A stretch of DNA of 5,955 bases from assembly GCA_021795255.1 (NCBI GenBank), contig JAJYPQ010000268.1, forward strand, positions 1 through 5,955. Direction: 5' to 3'. Below are positions 1 to 5,955 of this stretch, piece after piece. The position numbers were made by a program, and so were the translations under genes. Each line of letters opens with the position of its first letter. Positions within the stretch are counted from its first letter, which is position 1. The notes beneath the pieces were generated by a model. The model did not search any database and was not told the DNA's origin. It was given only the letters and a program-made list of their open reading frames with translations. The DNA is from Pseudomonadota bacterium (GTDB lineage: Bacteria > Pseudomonadota > Gammaproteobacteria > Acidiferrobacterales > Acidiferrobacteraceae).

Positions 1-931
1 GCTATGGCCCCAGCAAGCGGGGACGGGCCTCCCATCATCCCTTGATGGCCTTTATCTCGGATGTGCGCATGATCGCCAATTGCTGGTTGCGCCCGGGTAA
101 CAGTCACACCGCCCACAACGCCTCGGCGTTTCTCGATAACACCCTTGAGAACCTGGGGGACAAATGGGTCGCGCTGCTACGGGCCGACAGCGGTTTCAGT
201 GATCAGGCCTTTTTGCAGAAGTTGGAGCAAAAACAGCTCCATTACATCATCGCCATGCGTTTGAACCAACCCCTGCAACGGGCCCTCGTGGAGGCCTCAG
301 GCTGGTGGATGCTAGACGACGGTATTGATCTCGTCAGCATCGATTATCAGGCCCCGGGCTGGTCTCGACCGCGGCGCATCGTGGGGATTAGGCAACATCT
401 CGCGCGCCGCGCGGACGCGAAAGGCAAGATGCTCTCGCTTTTTGCGGATGACCCGCGGTGGGGTCAATATCGATTTGCCGCCCTGGTAACCGATTTGGAT
501 CTCCCATCCGTTGAGATCTGGCGCCTGTATCGCGGCCGTGCCGACTGTGAGAACCGCATCAAGGAATTGAAGTACGACTTCGCCGCCGATAGCTTTTGCT
601 TGGACGATTTCTGGGCCACCGAAGCGTCTCTCAACGCCGCCCTTCTGGCTTACAACCTGATGAGCCTCTTTCGCCAGGCGGTGCTGCGGGCGAGCGCCCT
701 GCAAAGCGGCGGCAAAGATGTCCAACACACCCTGAAGACCCTTCGCTACAAACTCTTTGCCAAGGCCGGCTACACCACCACCGAAGGCCGTAAGGATATC
801 CTGAAACTCGCGATCGCCATGCGCCAAAGAGAGTGGATGGAGGGCCTCTGGGATCGGTCGAAGATCTTCTCTTTGCCGATCCGTTTTACGCCCACGTTTT
901 CCTCGGCGTAGGGGCCTAATGGAAAATCTGG
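1..931 (+). mobile_element. Right part of an IS1380-type insertion sequence
   Basis: The transposase gene ends at 911, and homology to the integrase begins abruptly at 932, so the IS right end is placed between them, most likely at the run GAAAATCTGGG ending near 931. The terminal inverted repeat cannot be confirmed because the left end lies outside the window. The IS appears to have inserted into, or been joined by deletion to, an old integrase copy, since the last codons of that copy are missing exactly here. Confidence 0.6.
3..911 (+). CDS. IS1380-family transposase, 5'-truncated by window edge
   Basis: This is the catalytic and C-terminal part of a DDE transposase that cuts and joins the ends of its own insertion sequence. 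The frame is open from base 3, before any start codon, and the first codons (YGPSKRGRASHHPL) match the family's usual GYNPKKxGRPSHHPL block, so the gene begins outside the window. The TTG at 42 and ATG at 45 are internal. The second catalytic Asp is probably in LRADSGF (about 177-197) and the Glu in YRGRADCENRIKELK (about 529-573). The first Asp would lie upstream of the window. The C-terminus (AYNLMSLFRQ, then LRYKLFAKAGY) is also typical of the IS1380 group (DDE_Tnp_1). The frame has no stop and ends normally at TAG, so this end looks intact. I am sure of the family but cannot judge the missing part. Confidence 0.9.
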   Translation, partial: YGPSKRGRASHHPLMAFISDVRMIANCWLRPGNSHTAHNASAFLDNTLENLGDKWVALLRADSGFSDQAFLQKLEQKQLHYIIAMRLNQPLQRALVEASGWWMLDDGIDLVSIDYQAPGWSRPRRIVGIRQHLARRADAKGKMLSLFADDPRWGQYRFAALVTDLDLPSVEIWRLYRGRADCENRIKELKYDFAADSFCLDDFWATEASLNAALLAYNLMSLFRQAVLRASALQSGGKDVQHTLKTLRYKLFAKAGYTTTEGRKDILKLAIAMRQREWMEGLWDRSKIFSLPIRFTPTFSSA

Positions 932-1041
932 GTTCAACATCCGCAGGGTCTTATGGCCGGTGATCGCGCGGCGACCTCCATAGGGTTCAACCCCTTCTCA
1001 AAGAGTCGTGAGGGCGCCTTATGGCGCAAATCATGGCAGGC
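932..1041 (-). pseudogene. Remnant of a tyrosine integrase C-terminus
   Basis: Read on the minus strand, this stretch translates to HDLRHKAPSRLFEKGLNP followed by MEVAA, the same catalytic block as the integrase at 2189-3198 (HDLRHEATSRLFEKGLNP, MEVAA). At DNA level 932-1041 aligns with 2237-2343, including 32 identical bases (974-1005 against 2277-2308), and is about 85-90% identical by eye. A 2-bp insertion after MEVAA breaks the frame, and the end with the tyrosine nucleophile is replaced by the IS. Nothing upstream of HDLRH is recognisable beyond about 1041. It is a dead fragment of a related but diverged integrase, in the same orientation as the complete copy. Confidence 0.88.
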
Positions 1042-1137: not shown

Positions 1138-2022
1138 TTACCTTAAGGCGCGTAAATGCTTTACGAATATCCCGCGGGCGAAGCGCTTCTCTTCCGCCAT
1201 TAGTTTCCGTCCGATAAGCGTCGCTGTTTTAGCGATCAGTTTACCGTCATACTCCGGAGGTACTGTGGTGTTCGAATCAAAATGGCTGTTAAGTTGTTGG
1301 ACCTCGCTGCCCGCCGTTTTCGTCACTAACTCATTGCACACGCACTGCACCGCTACATCTAACGACATCTCTGCTTGGCTGACGTTGTTATTTGGCGCCG
1401 AGGCGACCATAGACACAGGTGCTGCGGCACTTAGAGTGGATACCGAACGAACATCTGCGGTCGTGATTGCAACATGCTTTTGAAGCCATTGTTCGTTCAA
1501 AGTCTCAACAGAATCAGCTTCCATCTGGAGTGCTGTACTCACGTTTTTCTTTGGATCATCGACCGCGAGGACATGCACCCGAACTCCATACGTCTGCGCC
1601 ACCTGTACAGCAACACGCAGGTCTTCATCCCCAGAAACGAGGACAGCATCAGATACCGCCCGGTTCCGCGCTAGATCAATCAAATCCGTAACGATTAGCG
1701 AATCGACACCTTTTTGCTCGCCAGCGTTGTTCAACGATCCGAGCCGTATTTTGACTCCAGCAAGATGGGCTATCGTCATCTGTTCTAAGGATGGCCGCGG
1801 CCCCAGGAGTGCGTCATACCAGTACACCCGCAGTAACCGCGAAGACGACATCATTGCGTCAGCCATTGAAGCCTGCTGGCCTGCCCTCTCAATGAGTGCC
1901 TTGATAAAGTCCGCTGGTGATCCCAGTGAGATGTAGCGGCGGGAAGTGGATTTCTTATTGATGGCAAGCGCGCTAGCCGCAAAAAAGTAGCCAGCGTCAA
2001 CTAGAACAGCATAGCGGTCCAT
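1138..2022 (-). CDS. NYN-domain (PIN-like, LabA/DUF88-type) putative ribonuclease
   Basis: The gene encodes a 294-residue cytoplasmic protein. I chose ATG at 2022 because AAAGGAG (2036-2030) sits 7 bases upstream and the conserved MDRYAVLVDAG begins there. The frame is open further upstream to 2124, but with no matching signal. Residues 1 to about 155 look like a NYN domain: a first strand with Asp9 (VLVDAGYFF), then KGVDSLIVTDLIDLA with Asp107 and Asp113, then LVSGDEDLR with Asp132 and Asp134. Together these give the acidic metal-binding pocket of PIN/NYN RNases. Residues from about 165 are low in complexity (Ser/Ala/Val/Asn) and form a linker. The last 40 residues (LIAKTATLIGRKLMAEEKRFARGIFVKHL) form a basic helical tail that may bind nucleic acid. 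The base composition is visibly less GC-rich than the flanking integrase, as expected for acquired cargo. Its target is unknown. RNA decay, toxin-like or phage-defence roles are all possible. Confidence 0.82.
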   Translation of the reverse strand: MDRYAVLVDAGYFFAASALAINKKSTSRRYISLGSPADFIKALIERAGQQASMADAMMSSSRLLRVYWYDALLGPRPSLEQMTIAHLAGVKIRLGSLNNAGEQKGVDSLIVTDLIDLARNRAVSDAVLVSGDEDLRVAVQVAQTYGVRVHVLAVDDPKKNVSTALQMEADSVETLNEQWLQKHVAITTADVRSVSTLSAAAPVSMVASAPNNNVSQAEMSLDVAVQCVCNELVTKTAGSEVQQLNSHFDSNTTVPPEYDGKLIAKTATLIGRKLMAEEKRFARGIFVKHLRALR

Positions 2023-2188: not shown

Positions 2189-3198
2189 TTACCCCAACCT
2201 CCCCACCAAATCCTCAGCTCGCAGATGCGTATACCTGTTCAGCATCTGCAGGGTCTTGTGGCCGGTAATCGCGGCAACCTCCATAGGGTTCAACCCCTTC
2301 TCAAAGAGCCTGGAGGTCGCCTCATGCCGCAGATCATGGAAGGTCAGGCCCTCGATACCGGCCGCCTTACAGACCCTCTCGAAGGCCTGGGAAATCGAGT
2401 CGGGGCGCATGGCCCACACGCGCCCGTCCAGGCGCCGGGGGAGCTGATCCAGGACTCCCACGCCGCCGTGGAGAGCGGCACCCGCCGAGGCGTCCCGGTC
2501 TTCGTTTCCGGGATCAGGCGCACCCGTGCGTTCCGGTCTAGGTGCTCCCAGCGCATGGCCGCGATCTCCCCGCGGCGCATGGCGGTTTCGATAGCCCAAG
2601 TGATGAGGGGGCCGATCATTCCTCCCTGGTCTTTTGAGGCGGCCTCGACGAGGCGCTGATGCTCGTCATCGACCAGACGTCTCGTCCTGCCACCTGGGAG
2701 CTTGGGACGCTGGCCACGGATCCGCTTGACGGGGTTCCCCAGGGATTCCATGCCCCAGGCGGAGCCTGCGACAGTGAAGACGTGGGAGAGCAGGGCGAGG
2801 TCGAGGCGGATAGTATTGGCGCCCAGGCCTTCGGCTTGTCGCCCCCGGATGAAGGTCGCGATGTCCGAGCCCTTGATGGACGCCAGGGAGCGACGGGCGA
2901 GCGGGAGCCCGGCGATTACCCGGGCGCGGACCGTTTCGCGCGATTGCGTCGACGGTTTCTTGGTTGGCGTGATCTCATAGAGGTAGCGCTCCAAGGCCTC
3001 CGCCAGGGTTGTACCCTCGGCCTCAGCGCTGGAGACGAAGGTGCCCTGGCCCATCGCCGACTCGATACCGCCCGCCCAGGTCTCGGCCTTCCCCTTACTG
3101 TCAAAGGTGCGGGTTTGCTGAGGGTATCCCCGGCGCCTCACGAGCGCCTGCCAGACCCGCTTGCCGTTGGGCCCCCTCCGTTGCACGAACGTCGCCAT
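2189..3198 (-). pseudogene. Phage/ICE tyrosine integrase, split by a one-base frameshift
   Basis: This is a site-specific recombinase that would insert and excise the element at the nearby tRNA-Leu site. The start is ATG at 3198, with GGAGGT 5 bases upstream (3209-3204). The N-terminal part (about 1-65, MATFVQRRGPNGKRVWQALVRRRG) looks like the small arm-binding domain, followed by a SAM-like core-binding domain (about 65-165) and the catalytic domain. Numbered with the frame restored, the catalytic residues are Arg208 (TAMRRGEI), Lys233 (ETKTGT), His288 and Arg291 (HDLRH), His314 (TGHKT) and Tyr323 (NRYTH). The first frame runs through VPLSTAAWESW; the matching sequence LDQLPRRLDGRVW continues in the other frame. 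The shift falls near 2450-2465. The span is 1010 bp, one short of 337 codons, so one base appears lost. No slippery heptamer is visible. It is either a recent inactivation or a sequencing error. The LRAEDL terminus is intact. Confidence 0.88.
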
Positions 3199-3217
3199 GC
3201 GACACCTCCGCGTGTTA

Positions 3218-3237
3218 GTGAGGGGTGCATACCTCAC
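3218..3237 (-). promoter_or_regulatory. Inverted repeat in the integrase leader
   Basis: GTGAGG (3218-3223) and CCTCAC (3232-3237) are perfect 6-bp arms around 8 bases, ending 20 bases before the integrase ATG and just ahead of its GGAGGT. It could be an operator or a small leader hairpin. I see no clear -35/-10 pair for the integrase here. Confidence 0.3.
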
Positions 3238-3239
3238 GG

Positions 3240-3258
3240 ATTGTCGCGGCATTGTCGC
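3240..3258. repeat. Paired 8-bp direct repeats, candidate integrase or Xis arm site (left)
   Basis: ATTGTCGC occurs at 3240-3247 and 3251-3258, an 11-bp period that places both copies on nearly the same face of the helix. The pair lies about 115-130 bp from the tRNA-derived core. The shared core TTGTC recurs on the opposite strand in the right-hand pair at 3484-3503. Confidence 0.4.
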
Positions 3259-3322
3259 AAAAGGCAAGATTGAAAGCGAGCTAAGGGAAGGGAAGGGAAT
3301 GTGCGTAAGTCGTTGATTTTAT

Positions 3323-3385
3323 TGGTGCCGGGAGAGGGGGTCGAACCCACACGGTATCTCTACCACCGGATTTTGAGTCTCAAAA
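3323..3385 (-). other. Attachment site: 3' half of tRNA-Leu(CAA)
   Basis: Read on the minus strand from 3377 to 3323, the sequence follows a class II tRNA. It has anticodon loop CTCAAAA with anticodon CAA, 3' anticodon stem TCCGG, a long variable arm with a GGTA-GAGA-TACC hairpin, T loop TTCGACC, acceptor strand TCCCGGC, discriminator A and encoded CCA. The long variable arm and CAA anticodon make it tRNA-Leu. The tRNA match stops at the loop: the preceding bases read TGAGA where CCGGA is needed, and no D-arm or 5' acceptor strand is found upstream. The T stem has one U-U mismatch (GTGGG against CCCTC), so the copy may have drifted. The bases at the break form a 15-bp palindrome (TTTTGAG, T, CTCAAAA; 3371-3385), suggesting the crossover lies in the anticodon loop. 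This is a fragment, not a working tRNA gene. Confidence 0.85.
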
Positions 3386-3483
3386 AACGTTTATAAGCGT
3401 CAATCATTTACGACGTAACCACTTGAAACTCCATATAAACATGATCCCTCCATATCCCTCACTACCCCTCTGTTTTTGTGCGC

Positions 3484-3503
3484 AGGTGGACAAGAGGTGG
3501 ACA
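3484..3503. repeat. Paired 9-bp direct repeats, candidate integrase arm site (right)
   Basis: AGGTGGACA occurs at 3484-3492 and 3495-3503, again with an 11-bp period, about 105-125 bp from the core on the side opposite the left pair. On the minus strand the left copy reads TTGTCCACC, sharing TTGTC with the left pair ATTGTCGC, so the two pairs are in inverted relation. Confidence 0.4.
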
Positions 3504-3598
3504 CAGATTTGGTAAGGCGGCGCTGGCCGCGATGCGCACCCTCTTGCGTCGATAGCTCAGAGGCTGGGTCGGCTGTCGTCTCCGCGATAGGTATGAAC

Positions 3599-3889
3599 TC
3601 AGGCATGCGCATGCAGCGAAATACCCAGAGCGTTGACGACCTTCAGGATTGTGCTGAAATCCGGGCTGCGGTCCCCAGAGAGCGCCTTGTACAGGCTTTC
3701 CCGGGAAAGTCCCGCGTCCCGCGCGACTTGGCTCATCCCTTTTGCGCGGGCGATGTCGCCCAGTGCCTTGGCAATAAAACCCGCATCACCATCCGCCTCT
3801 TCCAGGCAGGCCTCCAGGTATGCTGCCATCTCTTTTGGGGTGCGCAGGTGTTCTGCCACATCGTAACGACTGGTTTTGGTTTTGGGCAT
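3599..3889 (-). CDS. Addiction-module antitoxin, HTH (HigA/HI1420-like)
   Basis: This 96-residue cytoplasmic DNA-binding protein should neutralise the toxin encoded just upstream and repress their shared promoter. The N-terminal segment DVAEHLRTPKEMAAYLEACLEEADGD (about 10-35) is the hallmark of the HI1420 group of toxin partners. A Cro/CI-type helix-turn-helix follows at about 46-72 (GMSQVARDAGLSRESLYKALSGD), then the FSTILKVVNALGISL helix. The length is normal for the family. The start is ATG at 3889; GCAGGAG lies 11 bases upstream, a longer spacing than ideal. It begins 29 bases after the toxin stop, in the toxin-first order normal for this group. Both genes look intact. Confidence 0.88.
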   Translation of the reverse strand: MPKTKTSRYDVAEHLRTPKEMAAYLEACLEEADGDAGFIAKALGDIARAKGMSQVARDAGLSRESLYKALSGDRSPDFSTILKVVNALGISLHAHA

Positions 3890-3918: not shown

Positions 3919-4215
3919 CTAAGAGGAAAGATTCCTCGCTAATATCAAGGCCCTGCGAATATCGGCTTTTTGCGATCCCTTGTCGCCGCCGGCGAGCAGG
4001 ACGACGAGCGCCTGACCCCGACGCACGAAATACACCCGATAACCGGGGCCATAATCAATACGCAGTTCCGACACACCTCCGCCCACGGGCCGTGCATCAC
4101 CCGCATTGCCTGTAAGCAGACGTTCAACGCGCGCCAGAACGCGTGCCCGGGCCCGTTCATCGCGCAGGGTGTTGAGCCAGCGTACATAAACATCTGTTTT
4201 GCGGACCTCAATCAC
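3919..4215 (-). CDS. RelE/HigB-type addiction-module toxin (HI1419-like)
   Basis: This 98-residue protein is of the ParE/RelE fold, in the group annotated as addiction module killer proteins. Such toxins usually cut mRNA at the ribosome. The family opening IEVRKTDVYVRWLNTLRDERARARV (about 2-26) is present, followed by the core GGGVSELRIDYGPGYRVYFVRRG (45-67) and the C-terminal LLAGGDKGSQKADIRRA (73-89), which holds the strand and basic helix near the active site. The length is typical and there is no break. The start codon is GTG at 4215, because MIEVR is the conserved beginning. No Shine-Dalgarno lies before it; the -10 of the proposed promoter ends only 6 bases upstream. It forms a two-gene operon with the antitoxin and should stabilise the element. 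Confidence 0.88.
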   Translation of the reverse strand: MIEVRKTDVYVRWLNTLRDERARARVLARVERLLTGNAGDARPVGGGVSELRIDYGPGYRVYFVRRGQALVVLLAGGDKGSQKADIRRALILARNLSS

Positions 4216-4250: not shown

Positions 4251-4304
4251 GAGGAAACCGTTTGTCGGCCTTTTCATGCCGTCTGTCAGGACATAATTTA
4301 AAGG

Positions 4305-4493
4305 GCGTGTATAGGATACACATACCATCACTTACAACCCGATCAGACTTGAATTACTAGGAATTCAAGGCATTTTCCTTGTCAGAATAAAACCAGTTAC
4401 GAGTGCGTGTATAGGATACACATACCATCATATCCTATACAAAACAAGAACTTACAACCCTATCAGCCTTGAATCACTAGGAATTCAAGGCAT
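4305..4493. repeat. Two long direct repeats with internal dyads (candidate origin or control region)
   Basis: A 26-bp block at 4305-4330 is repeated exactly at 4405-4430, 100 bp apart. A 43-bp block at 4331-4373 is repeated at 4451-4493 with 3 mismatches, 120 bp apart. The second copy has a 20-bp insert (4431-4450). The 26-bp block contains the dyad GTGTAT-AGG-ATACAC. The 43-bp block contains CTTGAATT/AATTCAAG around 6 bases (4348-4369), with a slightly shifted version in copy two (4467-4490). The insert begins with TATCCTATAC, the reverse complement of GTATAGGATA in the 26-bp block, so copy two can form an extra 10-bp stem. A smaller pair, AAGGATAG, follows at 4503-4510 and 4513-4520. This occupies most of the gene-free 4251-4676. 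Being AT-rich, repeated and just before a replication-type operon, it could be an iteron origin, a partition site or paired operators. Confidence 0.75.
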
Positions 4494-4558: not shown

Positions 4559-4588
4559 GGTCTGGGGATGTTCGAGCACCCCCAGACC
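4559..4588. promoter_or_regulatory. Inverted repeat GGTCTGGGG/CCCCAGACC
   Basis: Perfect 9-bp arms at 4559-4567 and 4580-4588 flank 12 bases. No T run follows on either strand, so it is not an intrinsic terminator. The half-site GGTCTGG also occurs in the second dyad before the HTH gene (4666-4672), which suggests a shared protein-binding site. Confidence 0.45.
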
Positions 4589-4676: not shown

Positions 4677-4940
4677 ATGAAGCGACCACAAACTAGCCTC
4701 GACTTACTGCTAAAACAATTCCCCGGAAAACTTTTCCTTAGCGTCCAAGAAACCGGCATCGCATCGGGCCGGTGTGGAAAAACTGTCCGTAACGAGATCA
4801 CGCTCGGTGTCTTTCCGGTCAAAACCGTAAAGATCGGTCGACGCCGCCTCGTCCCGATCGCGGATCTCGCGGCTTGGCTTGACACCATCACGGACCCTAA
4901 TCCTGTTGGCCGCCCCCGTAGTTCCGGGAAGGGGGTCTAG
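4677..4940 (+). CDS. Small AlpA/MerR-like helix-turn-helix DNA-binding protein
   Basis: The gene encodes an 87-residue protein. Residues about 20-70 (LFLSVQETGIASGRCGKTVRNEITLG, then VKIGRRRLVPIADLAAWLDTI) have the pattern of AlpA/excisionase/HTH_17 winged helices: a helix-turn-helix, a short wing with IGRRRLV, and the closing helix that ends such domains. The tail is basic and Pro/Gly-rich. I start it at ATG 4677 because AGAGGT is 8 bases upstream. An in-frame ATG at 4641 would add 12 residues but has no such signal. Proteins of this kind act as excisionases or as regulators of prophage and plasmid operons. It is the first gene of a plus-strand operon; the next gene starts 2 bases after its stop. 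Its likely binding sites are the GGTCTGG/CCAGACC dyads just upstream. Confidence 0.7.
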   Translation: MKRPQTSLDLLLKQFPGKLFLSVQETGIASGRCGKTVRNEITLGVFPVKTVKIGRRRLVPIADLAAWLDTITDPNPVGRPRSSGKGV

Positions 4941-4942
4941 CC

Positions 4943-5647
4943 ATGCGCGCCCAGACCACCACAGATCCCGATTGCGCCCGCGGCCTGCCCTGGGCTGGCC
5001 TCACGCGCGCCGAGGAGCGCGTCTGGATCGATCGCGCCGGCGGCGTTCAGGCGGCCACGAATTTTATTCTTAGTTTTGGCCGATCCCCACGCTATCAAAG
5101 CAATCGTGACTTCCGCGAGACGCACACCCAAGGACCGAGCTTGGACCTGGTCACTGTCGATGCCATGGAAATCGAAACGATATTCCAGACGGATAAGGTA
5201 TACCCGGGCGGTCCTGCGCGCGCCCTGGATTGCGATGAGTGGAACGCCATCCACGTCTTAGCCCCCAGTGACCTCCCTGACCACGACGTTCTGACACTCA
5301 GCGCAAAGTATGGGCGGGGTGAATCGGTGAAAATCGGGAAAGAAGTCGGGCTCTCCGGTCGGAGGGTAAGGCAAATTCAGGACTGGCAAAGCGAGTGGGC
5401 CGACACACACTTAACGCGTGCCGATCGAGACGCCCACCTGGACGACCCATTGCCGACTGAAGAAGTGAAGCGCCGTCCGCTGTCCAGGGCGGGCCGCAAG
5501 CCCAAAAGGCTTGCCACACCCATCTTGATGTTGGCGCCCCGCGTGCCGTTGCCACCCAAGGCGCCTCGCCGTGTAGCAAGCCGCCGTCCGCGCCGGCGGT
5601 TCGTGGACCCCCGGCAATGCGATTTCGGCTGGGGGATAGCGGCATGA
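4943..5647 (+). CDS. Hypothetical protein with sigma-region-4-like HTH and basic tail
   Basis: I do not recognise this 234-residue protein. Its start, ATG 4943, comes two bases after the previous stop, with GGAAGGGGG overlapping the end of that gene as ribosome binding site. Residues 14-50 are a mixed helical segment (LPWAGLTRAEERVWIDRAGG). Residues about 115-150 (VLTLSAKYGRGESVKIGKEVGLSGRRVRQIQDW) resemble the helix-turn-helix of sigma factor region 4, with a helix, a turn at GL and a recognition helix RRVRQIQ. Residues 176-220 are strongly basic and Pro-rich (KRRPLSRAGRKPKR, then RRVASRRPRRRF), which suggests nonspecific nucleic-acid binding. There is no signal peptide or membrane segment. 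Sitting between an HTH regulator and a replication-type protein, it is probably a DNA-binding regulator or replication accessory factor. That role is inferred from position. Confidence 0.7.
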   Translation: MRAQTTTDPDCARGLPWAGLTRAEERVWIDRAGGVQAATNFILSFGRSPRYQSNRDFRETHTQGPSLDLVTVDAMEIETIFQTDKVYPGGPARALDCDEWNAIHVLAPSDLPDHDVLTLSAKYGRGESVKIGKEVGLSGRRVRQIQDWQSEWADTHLTRADRDAHLDDPLPTEEVKRRPLSRAGRKPKRLATPILMLAPRVPLPPKAPRRVASRRPRRRFVDPRQCDFGWGIAA

Positions 5648-5955
5648 CGACCATCCAAGACACTCATAGTGGCGGGGTGCTTTCCGTATCTATGCCGCCC
5701 GGCAGTCGGTATGGCATCGTCCCGCGTGCGTTGTTGGAGGATCCACGCCTCAGCCTGGACACCCGGGCAGTAGCGGCCTGGTTATCCACGCAGGACGCCG
5801 GATTTCAAATCGTGATCGCCGTCCTCTGCCGCAAAATGGGGTTAGGCAAAGAGCGATGGCTGCGCATTGCGCGCGAATTGGAGGGGAGCGGTTACTTGAG
5901 CCGACGCAAGCGCCCCATTGGCGTCGACCCGGTGACAGGACGGAAAAACCAGTGG
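5644..5955 (+). CDS. Winged-helix protein, probable replication protein, cut by window end
   Basis: The first 104 residues are present and the frame is still open at the edge. The start, ATG 5644, overlaps the previous stop as ATGA, so translation is probably coupled. After a short variable N-terminus, residues about 23-35 (RYGIVPRALLEDP) lead into a winged helix at about 36-90: LSLDTRAVAAWLSTQ, then FQIVIAVLCRKMGLGKERWLRIARELEGSGYLSRR. This is the pattern of HTH domains in plasmid and phage replication proteins (HTH_36/DnaD-like or phage O-like), where the last helix and wing read origin DNA. The repeat region about 1.2 kb upstream would be a fitting partner. The C-terminal part that would settle the function is outside the window. 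Confidence 0.7.
   Translation, partial: MTTIQDTHSGGVLSVSMPPGSRYGIVPRALLEDPRLSLDTRAVAAWLSTQDAGFQIVIAVLCRKMGLGKERWLRIARELEGSGYLSRRKRPIGVDPVTGRKNQW

Follow-up and report, generated by a model that had tools for sequence, protein, structure and literature searches.

The att site beside the integrase gene of the 5,955-bp stretch analysed here (hereafter the window) is very probably the internal junction, or chimeric attI, between two different elements in what we infer to be a chromosomal stack at tRNA-Leu(CAA). A bare end of the tRNA gene stands at the junction. That its two half-sites belong to different elements is suggested by the arm types, TCCAC on the side of the toxin-antitoxin (TA) and rep genes and CGACA on the side of the integrase, read against controls in which both arms come from a single element. 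The left half would be the far end of one integrative element, carrying a TA pair, an AlpA-like gene, rep1 and TCCAC arms, whose own TCCAC-type integrase is expected at its other end, adjoining the intact tRNA. The right half would belong to a second element, probably an older one in decay, and would be its integrase end, with CGACA arms, a frameshifted integrase, NYN-domain cargo and an IS1380-like gene. Neither the intact tRNA nor the integrase of the left element lies within the 5,955-bp window, which is apparently a whole contig and ends inside both elements. The features of the window are the following.

3..911, plus strand: IS1380-like transposase gene, cut by the contig start, outside the att site (NF033539, 5.4e-50)
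932..1040, minus strand: additional, partial copy of the integrase 3' end (identity of 88-89% to 2237-2343)
1138..2022, minus strand: NYN-domain protein, presumably right-element cargo (PF01936 at 2.1e-13 for the longer ORF 1138-2124)
2189..3198, minus strand: tyrosine integrase of the right element, with a frame change (Pfam Phage_integrase in both pieces)
3199..3204, minus strand: inverted arm-core copy TGTCGC just before the integrase ATG (comparable inverted copies in several relatives, by eye)
3240..3262, minus strand: integrase-side arm pair, type CGACA (TTTTG-CGACA-ATGCCG-CGACA-AT)
3306..3318, minus strand: IHF-like site adjoining the CCA end of the tRNA, AATCAACGACTTA (similar stretch after most tRNA-integrase pairs, by eye)
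3323..3378, minus strand: bare 3' fragment of tRNA-Leu(CAA), 56 bp, from the anticodon loop to CCA (by identity to intact genes)
3369..3387, minus strand: core and left boundary, TTTTTTGAG/ACTCAAAATC (TTTTGAG/ACT also in relatives)
3416..3428, minus strand: IHF-like site of the left arm, one mismatch to the presumed consensus
3485..3503, minus strand: far-side arm pair of type TCCAC (TG-TCCAC-CTCTTG-TCCAC-C), attributed to the left (TA/rep) element
3599..3889, minus strand: HI1420-type antitoxin, left element (TIGR02684, 6.3e-36)
3919..4215, minus strand: HI1419 RelE/ParE-type toxin, left element (TIGR02683, 8.7e-37)
4302..4493, no strand: two direct-repeat families (29-bp and 44-bp units), each present in two copies
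4677..4940, plus strand: AlpA/excisionase-like HTH protein (phrog_1300, 0.00067)
4943..5647, plus strand: rep1, a 234-aa family-less protein (near the far end in several relatives)
5644..5955, plus strand: rep2, an HTH protein cut by the contig end (phrog_4221, 0.027, and others)

Anatomy of the site and its flanking genes

Read on the minus strand from the TA/rep side towards the integrase, the site is composed of the TCCAC arms, an IHF-like site, the core, the tRNA fragment, a second IHF-like site, the CGACA arms, TGTCGC and the integrase ATG. The fragment is identical over 56/56 nt to the intact tRNA-Leu(CAA) genes of L001, L002, L003, L007 and L065 (L and G numbers denote loci and genomes of relatives), and its 3' end, as a preliminary description of this DNA had stated, directly faces the start of the integrase (ATG at 3198). 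The same description had reported the 5' half of the tRNA to be missing and named a tRNA scanner as the means of detecting a D-arm or 5' acceptor strand; neither was found in the window. ARAGORN identified no tRNA gene in the whole window, Rfam gave no match at E <= 1, and the best ungapped window match to the 31-nt 5' half has 10 mismatches and does not adjoin the fragment, which together rule out a 5' half hidden nearby. An exact search of IMG/VR with the 56-bp core returned no match.

The heptamer at 3371-3377 is the anticodon loop and would be the overlap region. Bare fragments compared across relatives begin in or near the anticodon loop, and the overlap would therefore be the anticodon itself. 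The boundary TTTTGAG/ACT also precedes the fragments of Leu in L058, Asn in L074 and L079 and Lys in L075, and is absent at the L076 fragment, which has TTTTGGGAG instead. The palindrome TTTTGAG-A-CTCAAAA at the core, considered as an inverted core pair, is probably due to chance because TTTTGAG/ACT also precedes fragments with the anticodons TTT and GTT.

Both arm pairs show an 11-bp period and lie about 108 and 109 bp from the heptamer, in agreement with the paired repeats at similar distances from the core noted in the preliminary description, and are probably arm sites of the lambda type. That description had missed that the two pairs differ in sequence (GTCCACC versus GCGACAA), and it is this difference which decides between the interpretations. 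Both IHF-like sites were recognised by comparison with WATCAANNNNTTR, which we take to be the IHF consensus, and the inverted TGTCGC before the integrase ATG is a possible site of autoregulation. In the proposed mechanism, the integrase would bind the paired arm sites through its N-terminal sheet and exchange strands in the anticodon loop, with the DNA bent by IHF. A newcomer would insert at the intact tRNA and restore the gene through the 3' end that it carries, and the resident would be pushed outward, keeping only a bare 3' piece before its integrase.

On the upstream side, the preliminary description had placed toxin-antitoxin and replication genes. The former are present as an HI1419/HI1420-type pair, but the label “replication” is weak, as rep2 resembles replication initiators only by weak matches and rep1 has no match in Pfam, PHROG or NCBIfam. 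A protein search with rep1 gave 65 proteins at E <= 0.001 (the window's own counted), and the gene is found near the far att end in several elements. A 15-bp inverted repeat at 4559-4588 lies ahead of the AlpA-like gene and, together with the direct repeats at 4302-4493, could be an origin or regulatory region. L074 and L079, both with Asn fragments, share 81-84% identity with the window from 4372 to about 4680.

On the integrase side, the PF00589 catalytic domain is present in both reading-frame pieces of the integrase, which changes frame near 2455-2470, while L001-L005 read both pieces in one frame. The frameshift could fit a decayed inner element, a sequencing error being the alternative. 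The IS1380-like gene matches NF033539 at profile positions 163-416 of 419 with 170 bits (cut-off 180). The partial integrase tail at 932-1040 lies past the NYN gene, and extra integrase tails also occur behind the integrase in L006, L007, L011, L015, L020, L021, L028 and L029, a pattern that might arise if incoming segments of integrase and cargo had replaced older genes apart from their tails.

Arm types and the integrase N-terminus

The window integrase has 59 relatives among the genome contigs searched, the best 83% identical, whose hosts are mostly proteobacterial MAGs and, where named, include Acidiferrobacter and Acidithiobacillus. Layout classes were counted by hand for the 52 of these 59 loci that were inspected. 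In 33/52 loci, covering 15 isoacceptor types, the integrase comes directly after an intact tRNA gene, consistent with the expectation in the preliminary description that the integrase normally abuts a complete tRNA. A bare fragment faces the integrase in 6/52 (L006, L010, L039, L046, L050 and L058), the tRNA is in the opposite orientation beside the integrase in 5/52, and the remaining 8/52 have no tRNA or could not be judged. The opposite-orientation tRNA pieces are those of L033, L047, L049, L051 and L056, which are mostly deltaproteobacterial. In most loci the tRNA is followed by a AATCAAnnnnTTA-like stretch and then by a repeat pair with an 11-bp period, the central 5-mer of which varies (CGACA, TCCAC, CTGTA, GGACA, GTAAC, GTACA, CCATA, CTCCA and others). 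Typing of 46 integrase-side arms by eye, the window included, gave 13 types; for 13 of the 46, a single exact 5-mer copy was present in the stretch that was checked.

We compared arm type with the sequence of the integrase for 38 of the 46 proteins, seven having been dropped for length (< 200 residues) and L023 as the cut motif was not found in it; the start of L019 was probably set too early. The N-terminal part was defined as the residues up to a conserved T[FLC] motif (27-36 residues, 32 in most). Its identity is 73% for pairs with the same arm (n=81) versus 50% for pairs with different arms (n=622), compared with 59% versus 54% for the rest of the protein in the same pairs. The residual difference was reached by 0/2000 label shuffles, which leave relatedness in and carry no tree correction. 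The nearest neighbour shares the arm type in 29/33 cases by N-terminus versus 12/33 by the rest of the protein. Thus, the arm 5-mer appears to follow the N-terminal arm-binding sheet of the integrase, a correlation that is strong though not tree-corrected.

An AlphaFold model of L012 (mean pLDDT 86, pTM 0.58) has strands at residues 2-8, 14-20 and 28-32 and a helix at 35-50, with lambda integrase as its best PDB match, and the N-terminus of the window integrase is 88% identical to that of L012. As modelled on this relative, the family of the window integrase would have a three-stranded N-terminal arm-binding domain. The N-terminus of the window integrase is nearest to CGACA types; outside the N-terminus the protein is closest to TCCAC types at tRNA-Leu(CAA) (82-83% identity to L001-L003).

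Single elements, junctions and stacks in relatives

Where both arms of one element could be typed by eye, allowing one mismatch, they match in 9/11 cases: the first element of L006 (CTCCA), L029 (CCATA), L091 with L129 (TTGTA/CTGTA), L100 and L105 (CTGTA), and the Glu (TCCAC), Val-1 (GGAAA), Val-2 (ACGCC) and Leu (CTGTA) elements of G025. The two unlike pairs are L014 and G025 Val-3, a 1.2-kb remnant. By contrast, 0/13 bare-fragment junctions with both sides typable by eye have matching arms: TCCAC/CGACA in the window, TCCAC/GGACA in L058 and L075, CTCCA/GGACA in L006 and L039, GTCCA/CTGTA in L010, CCAAT/CCACA in L050, CTCCA/CCATA in L103, CTGTA/CGACA-like at the end of G006:C15, and, in G025, TCCAC/GTAAC (Glu), GGAAA/ACGCC (Val j1), ACGCC/GTACA-like (Val j2) and CTGTA/GTCCA (Leu). 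In L039, G006:C15, G025 Glu and Val j2 the right arm is a single or degenerate copy. The by-eye junction count omits L046 and Val j3; no left arm was seen by eye in L046, where the script described below took a pair that is also a mismatch. Fisher's test of pairs against junctions typed by eye gives p 4e-5 for two sets that are not independent, several stacks contributing to both.

The by-eye typing was not blind to the question. A script with a fixed detection rule and a threshold of 4 of 5 identities, chosen on reading its output, found matches in 6/7 same-element pairs and 0/10 junctions, having typed both arms of 7/11 pairs and both sides of 10/15 junction sites. The pairs left untyped were L006, L029, L014 and G025 Val-3, and the junctions L039, G006:C15, G025 Glu, Val j2 and Val j3. 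G025 Val-2 was scored by the script as a mismatch; both of its pairs contain GACGCC, one base out of register. Avoidance of like-on-like stacking was considered and is not supported, as with 11.7% random identity of arm types 0/13 matches has a probability of 0.20.

Stacks are directly visible in G025. On its 3,398,398-bp contig, a tRNA-Glu(TTC) gene at 1461733 has a TCCAC arm and an integrase behind it and then, 17 kb on, rep2, rep1 and AlpA homologues, a TCCAC arm and a bare Glu piece (1480624), past which lie a single GTAAC-type site and a broken integrase. The TCCAC type of the left half of the window thus marks both ends of this Glu element, and the stack appears comparable to the window in order, with the left element complete. 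The window TA pair has no match in the Glu element. This element encodes two coupling proteins of the TrwB type and an AAA_30 helicase that matches the TraI helicase below threshold, and on account of these it may be mobilizable; no relaxase was detected among the 10 of its proteins that were scanned. In the same genome, a tRNA-Leu(CAA) gene at 2275040 precedes a CTGTA arm, an interrupted integrase and later rep1. About 3.4 kb past rep1 stand another CTGTA arm and a bare Leu piece (2318754) with one mismatch to the window fragment, and beyond these a GTCCA arm followed by an integrase whose matches fall in two frames. This Leu stack gave no AlpA or TA match. A third stack, at tRNA-Val(CAC) (G025:C1, 2181005-2240357; L147, L148, L163), has three bare fragments, the third remnant being of about 1.2 kb.

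Other relatives give partial views. L006 contains a whole first element and then the beginning of a second. In MAG G001, one contig carries a TCCAC integrase beside an intact tRNA-Leu(CAA) (L003) and another a rep1/TCCAC end that has a bare Leu piece (L058); the contig names give similar coverages, 3.1 and 3.0, and the two loci may be opposite ends of one element. Near 816 kb of G025:C1 (L151), rep1 and AlpA homologues are followed by a TCCAC-like pair, with no tRNA fragment and no integrase match there; this site is perhaps a rearranged far end.

Alternative readings and related systems

The preliminary description had offered a circular form or a junction between tandem copies. Of these, the junction is upheld by the stacks in G025, but a circle or like copies are disfavoured by the differing arms, because like arms would be expected on both sides, as in single elements. 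An attP of a circular form, that is, a single plasmid-like or excised element in which the integrase and TA/rep genes flank the site, would account for the layout, the AlpA-like and weakly rep-like genes, the repeats at 4302-4493 and a window without an intact tRNA. We nevertheless consider it unlikely, as the arm types are unlike on the two sides and, judging from the correlation of arm type with N-terminus, one integrase would probably not read both. The integrase is also frameshifted, no close plasmid or phage record was found for the window, rep1-bearing relatives of the same order lie on the 3.4-Mb contig of G025, and L058 and L075 stand beside transporter-like genes (recognised by eye), L058 also beside a tRNA-Glu. 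The window has no terminal overlap, a result still compatible with a circle, and terminal overlaps indicative of circularity are likewise absent from L006, L010, L074, L075, L076, L078, L079, L080 and G001:C58. A junction of two copies of one element would be favoured by the layout alone and, with arm types that differ, is highly improbable.

A single element, integrated or circular, might instead have had its P' arm and integrase N-terminus replaced together, leaving the TCCAC far arm unmatched. The window integrase, with an N-terminus nearest to CGACA types and a remainder nearest to TCCAC types at the same tRNA, is what such a replacement would produce, but N-terminus and remainder disagree widely across the family and yet same-element arms mostly match, and stacks are present in G025 and L006; we give this reading as little chance as the circular form. 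An ordinary chromosomal attR with an unrelated integrase nearby by accident has nothing in its favour beyond the missing 5' half and is barely conceivable, as the integrase side has the family's own anatomy, with an IHF-like site at the CCA end, an arm pair and an inverted copy at the ATG. Counting against our preferred reading, a stack of two different elements, are the two same-element pairs with unlike arms and the rep1 ends without an adjoining integrase, namely the site near 816 kb of G025 and L074 and L076, where a bare fragment lies beside a rep1 homologue and no adjoining integrase was matched.

The attP of lambda comprises a core, an IHF site and paired arm sites, and the window shows the same parts. 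Unlike in lambda, the target is a tRNA and the arm motif varies within one integrase family. SGI1 tandem arrays, which reportedly contain internal att sites, are made up of one repeated element at a protein gene, whereas the window would hold two different elements at a tRNA. The three-stranded N-terminal domain is a further likeness to lambda Int, as treated in passages of PMC8138268, lambda Int being the best PDB match. In the passages of PMC2951348 dealing with KplE1 intS at argW, the integrase likewise adjoins the tRNA and the arm sites overlap its promoter region; unlike for the autoregulated intS described there, autoregulation in the window is suggested by the inverted arm copy before the ATG. 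A close parallel is the accretion of ICEs, IMEs and CIMEs in tandem at one att site, generally with a decayed partner, for which passages of PMC5704250 describe stacking at a single target such as the 3' end of a tRNA with an internal chimeric attI, and also tandem integration of SGI1. Compared with the accretion described in those passages, the arm types of the window indicate the element to which each half of the junction belongs, and one family accounts for many of the integrases here, with Acidiferrobacter and Acidithiobacillus among the host relatives. The stack arrangement is thus already known, and the window is a new example with an unusually legible arm code.

It is possible, and we propose it tentatively, that the arm sites serve as an interchangeable identity code, comprising 13 five-base types within a frame that varies little, each matched by a short N-terminal sheet that is swapped independently of the catalytic part. 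An element bearing its own code on both ends could then share a tRNA core with others, stack, and excise singly without mobilising its neighbours. In the portions of the open-access literature covered, no earlier account was found of an arm code inside a single family of integrases that target tRNA genes. Short metagenome contigs leave open whether such a site is a stack junction or a circular form, and arm-site typing can help to separate the two. The family furthermore offers naturally matched variants of arm site and arm domain, and these could serve to work out a recognition code for arm-binding domains.
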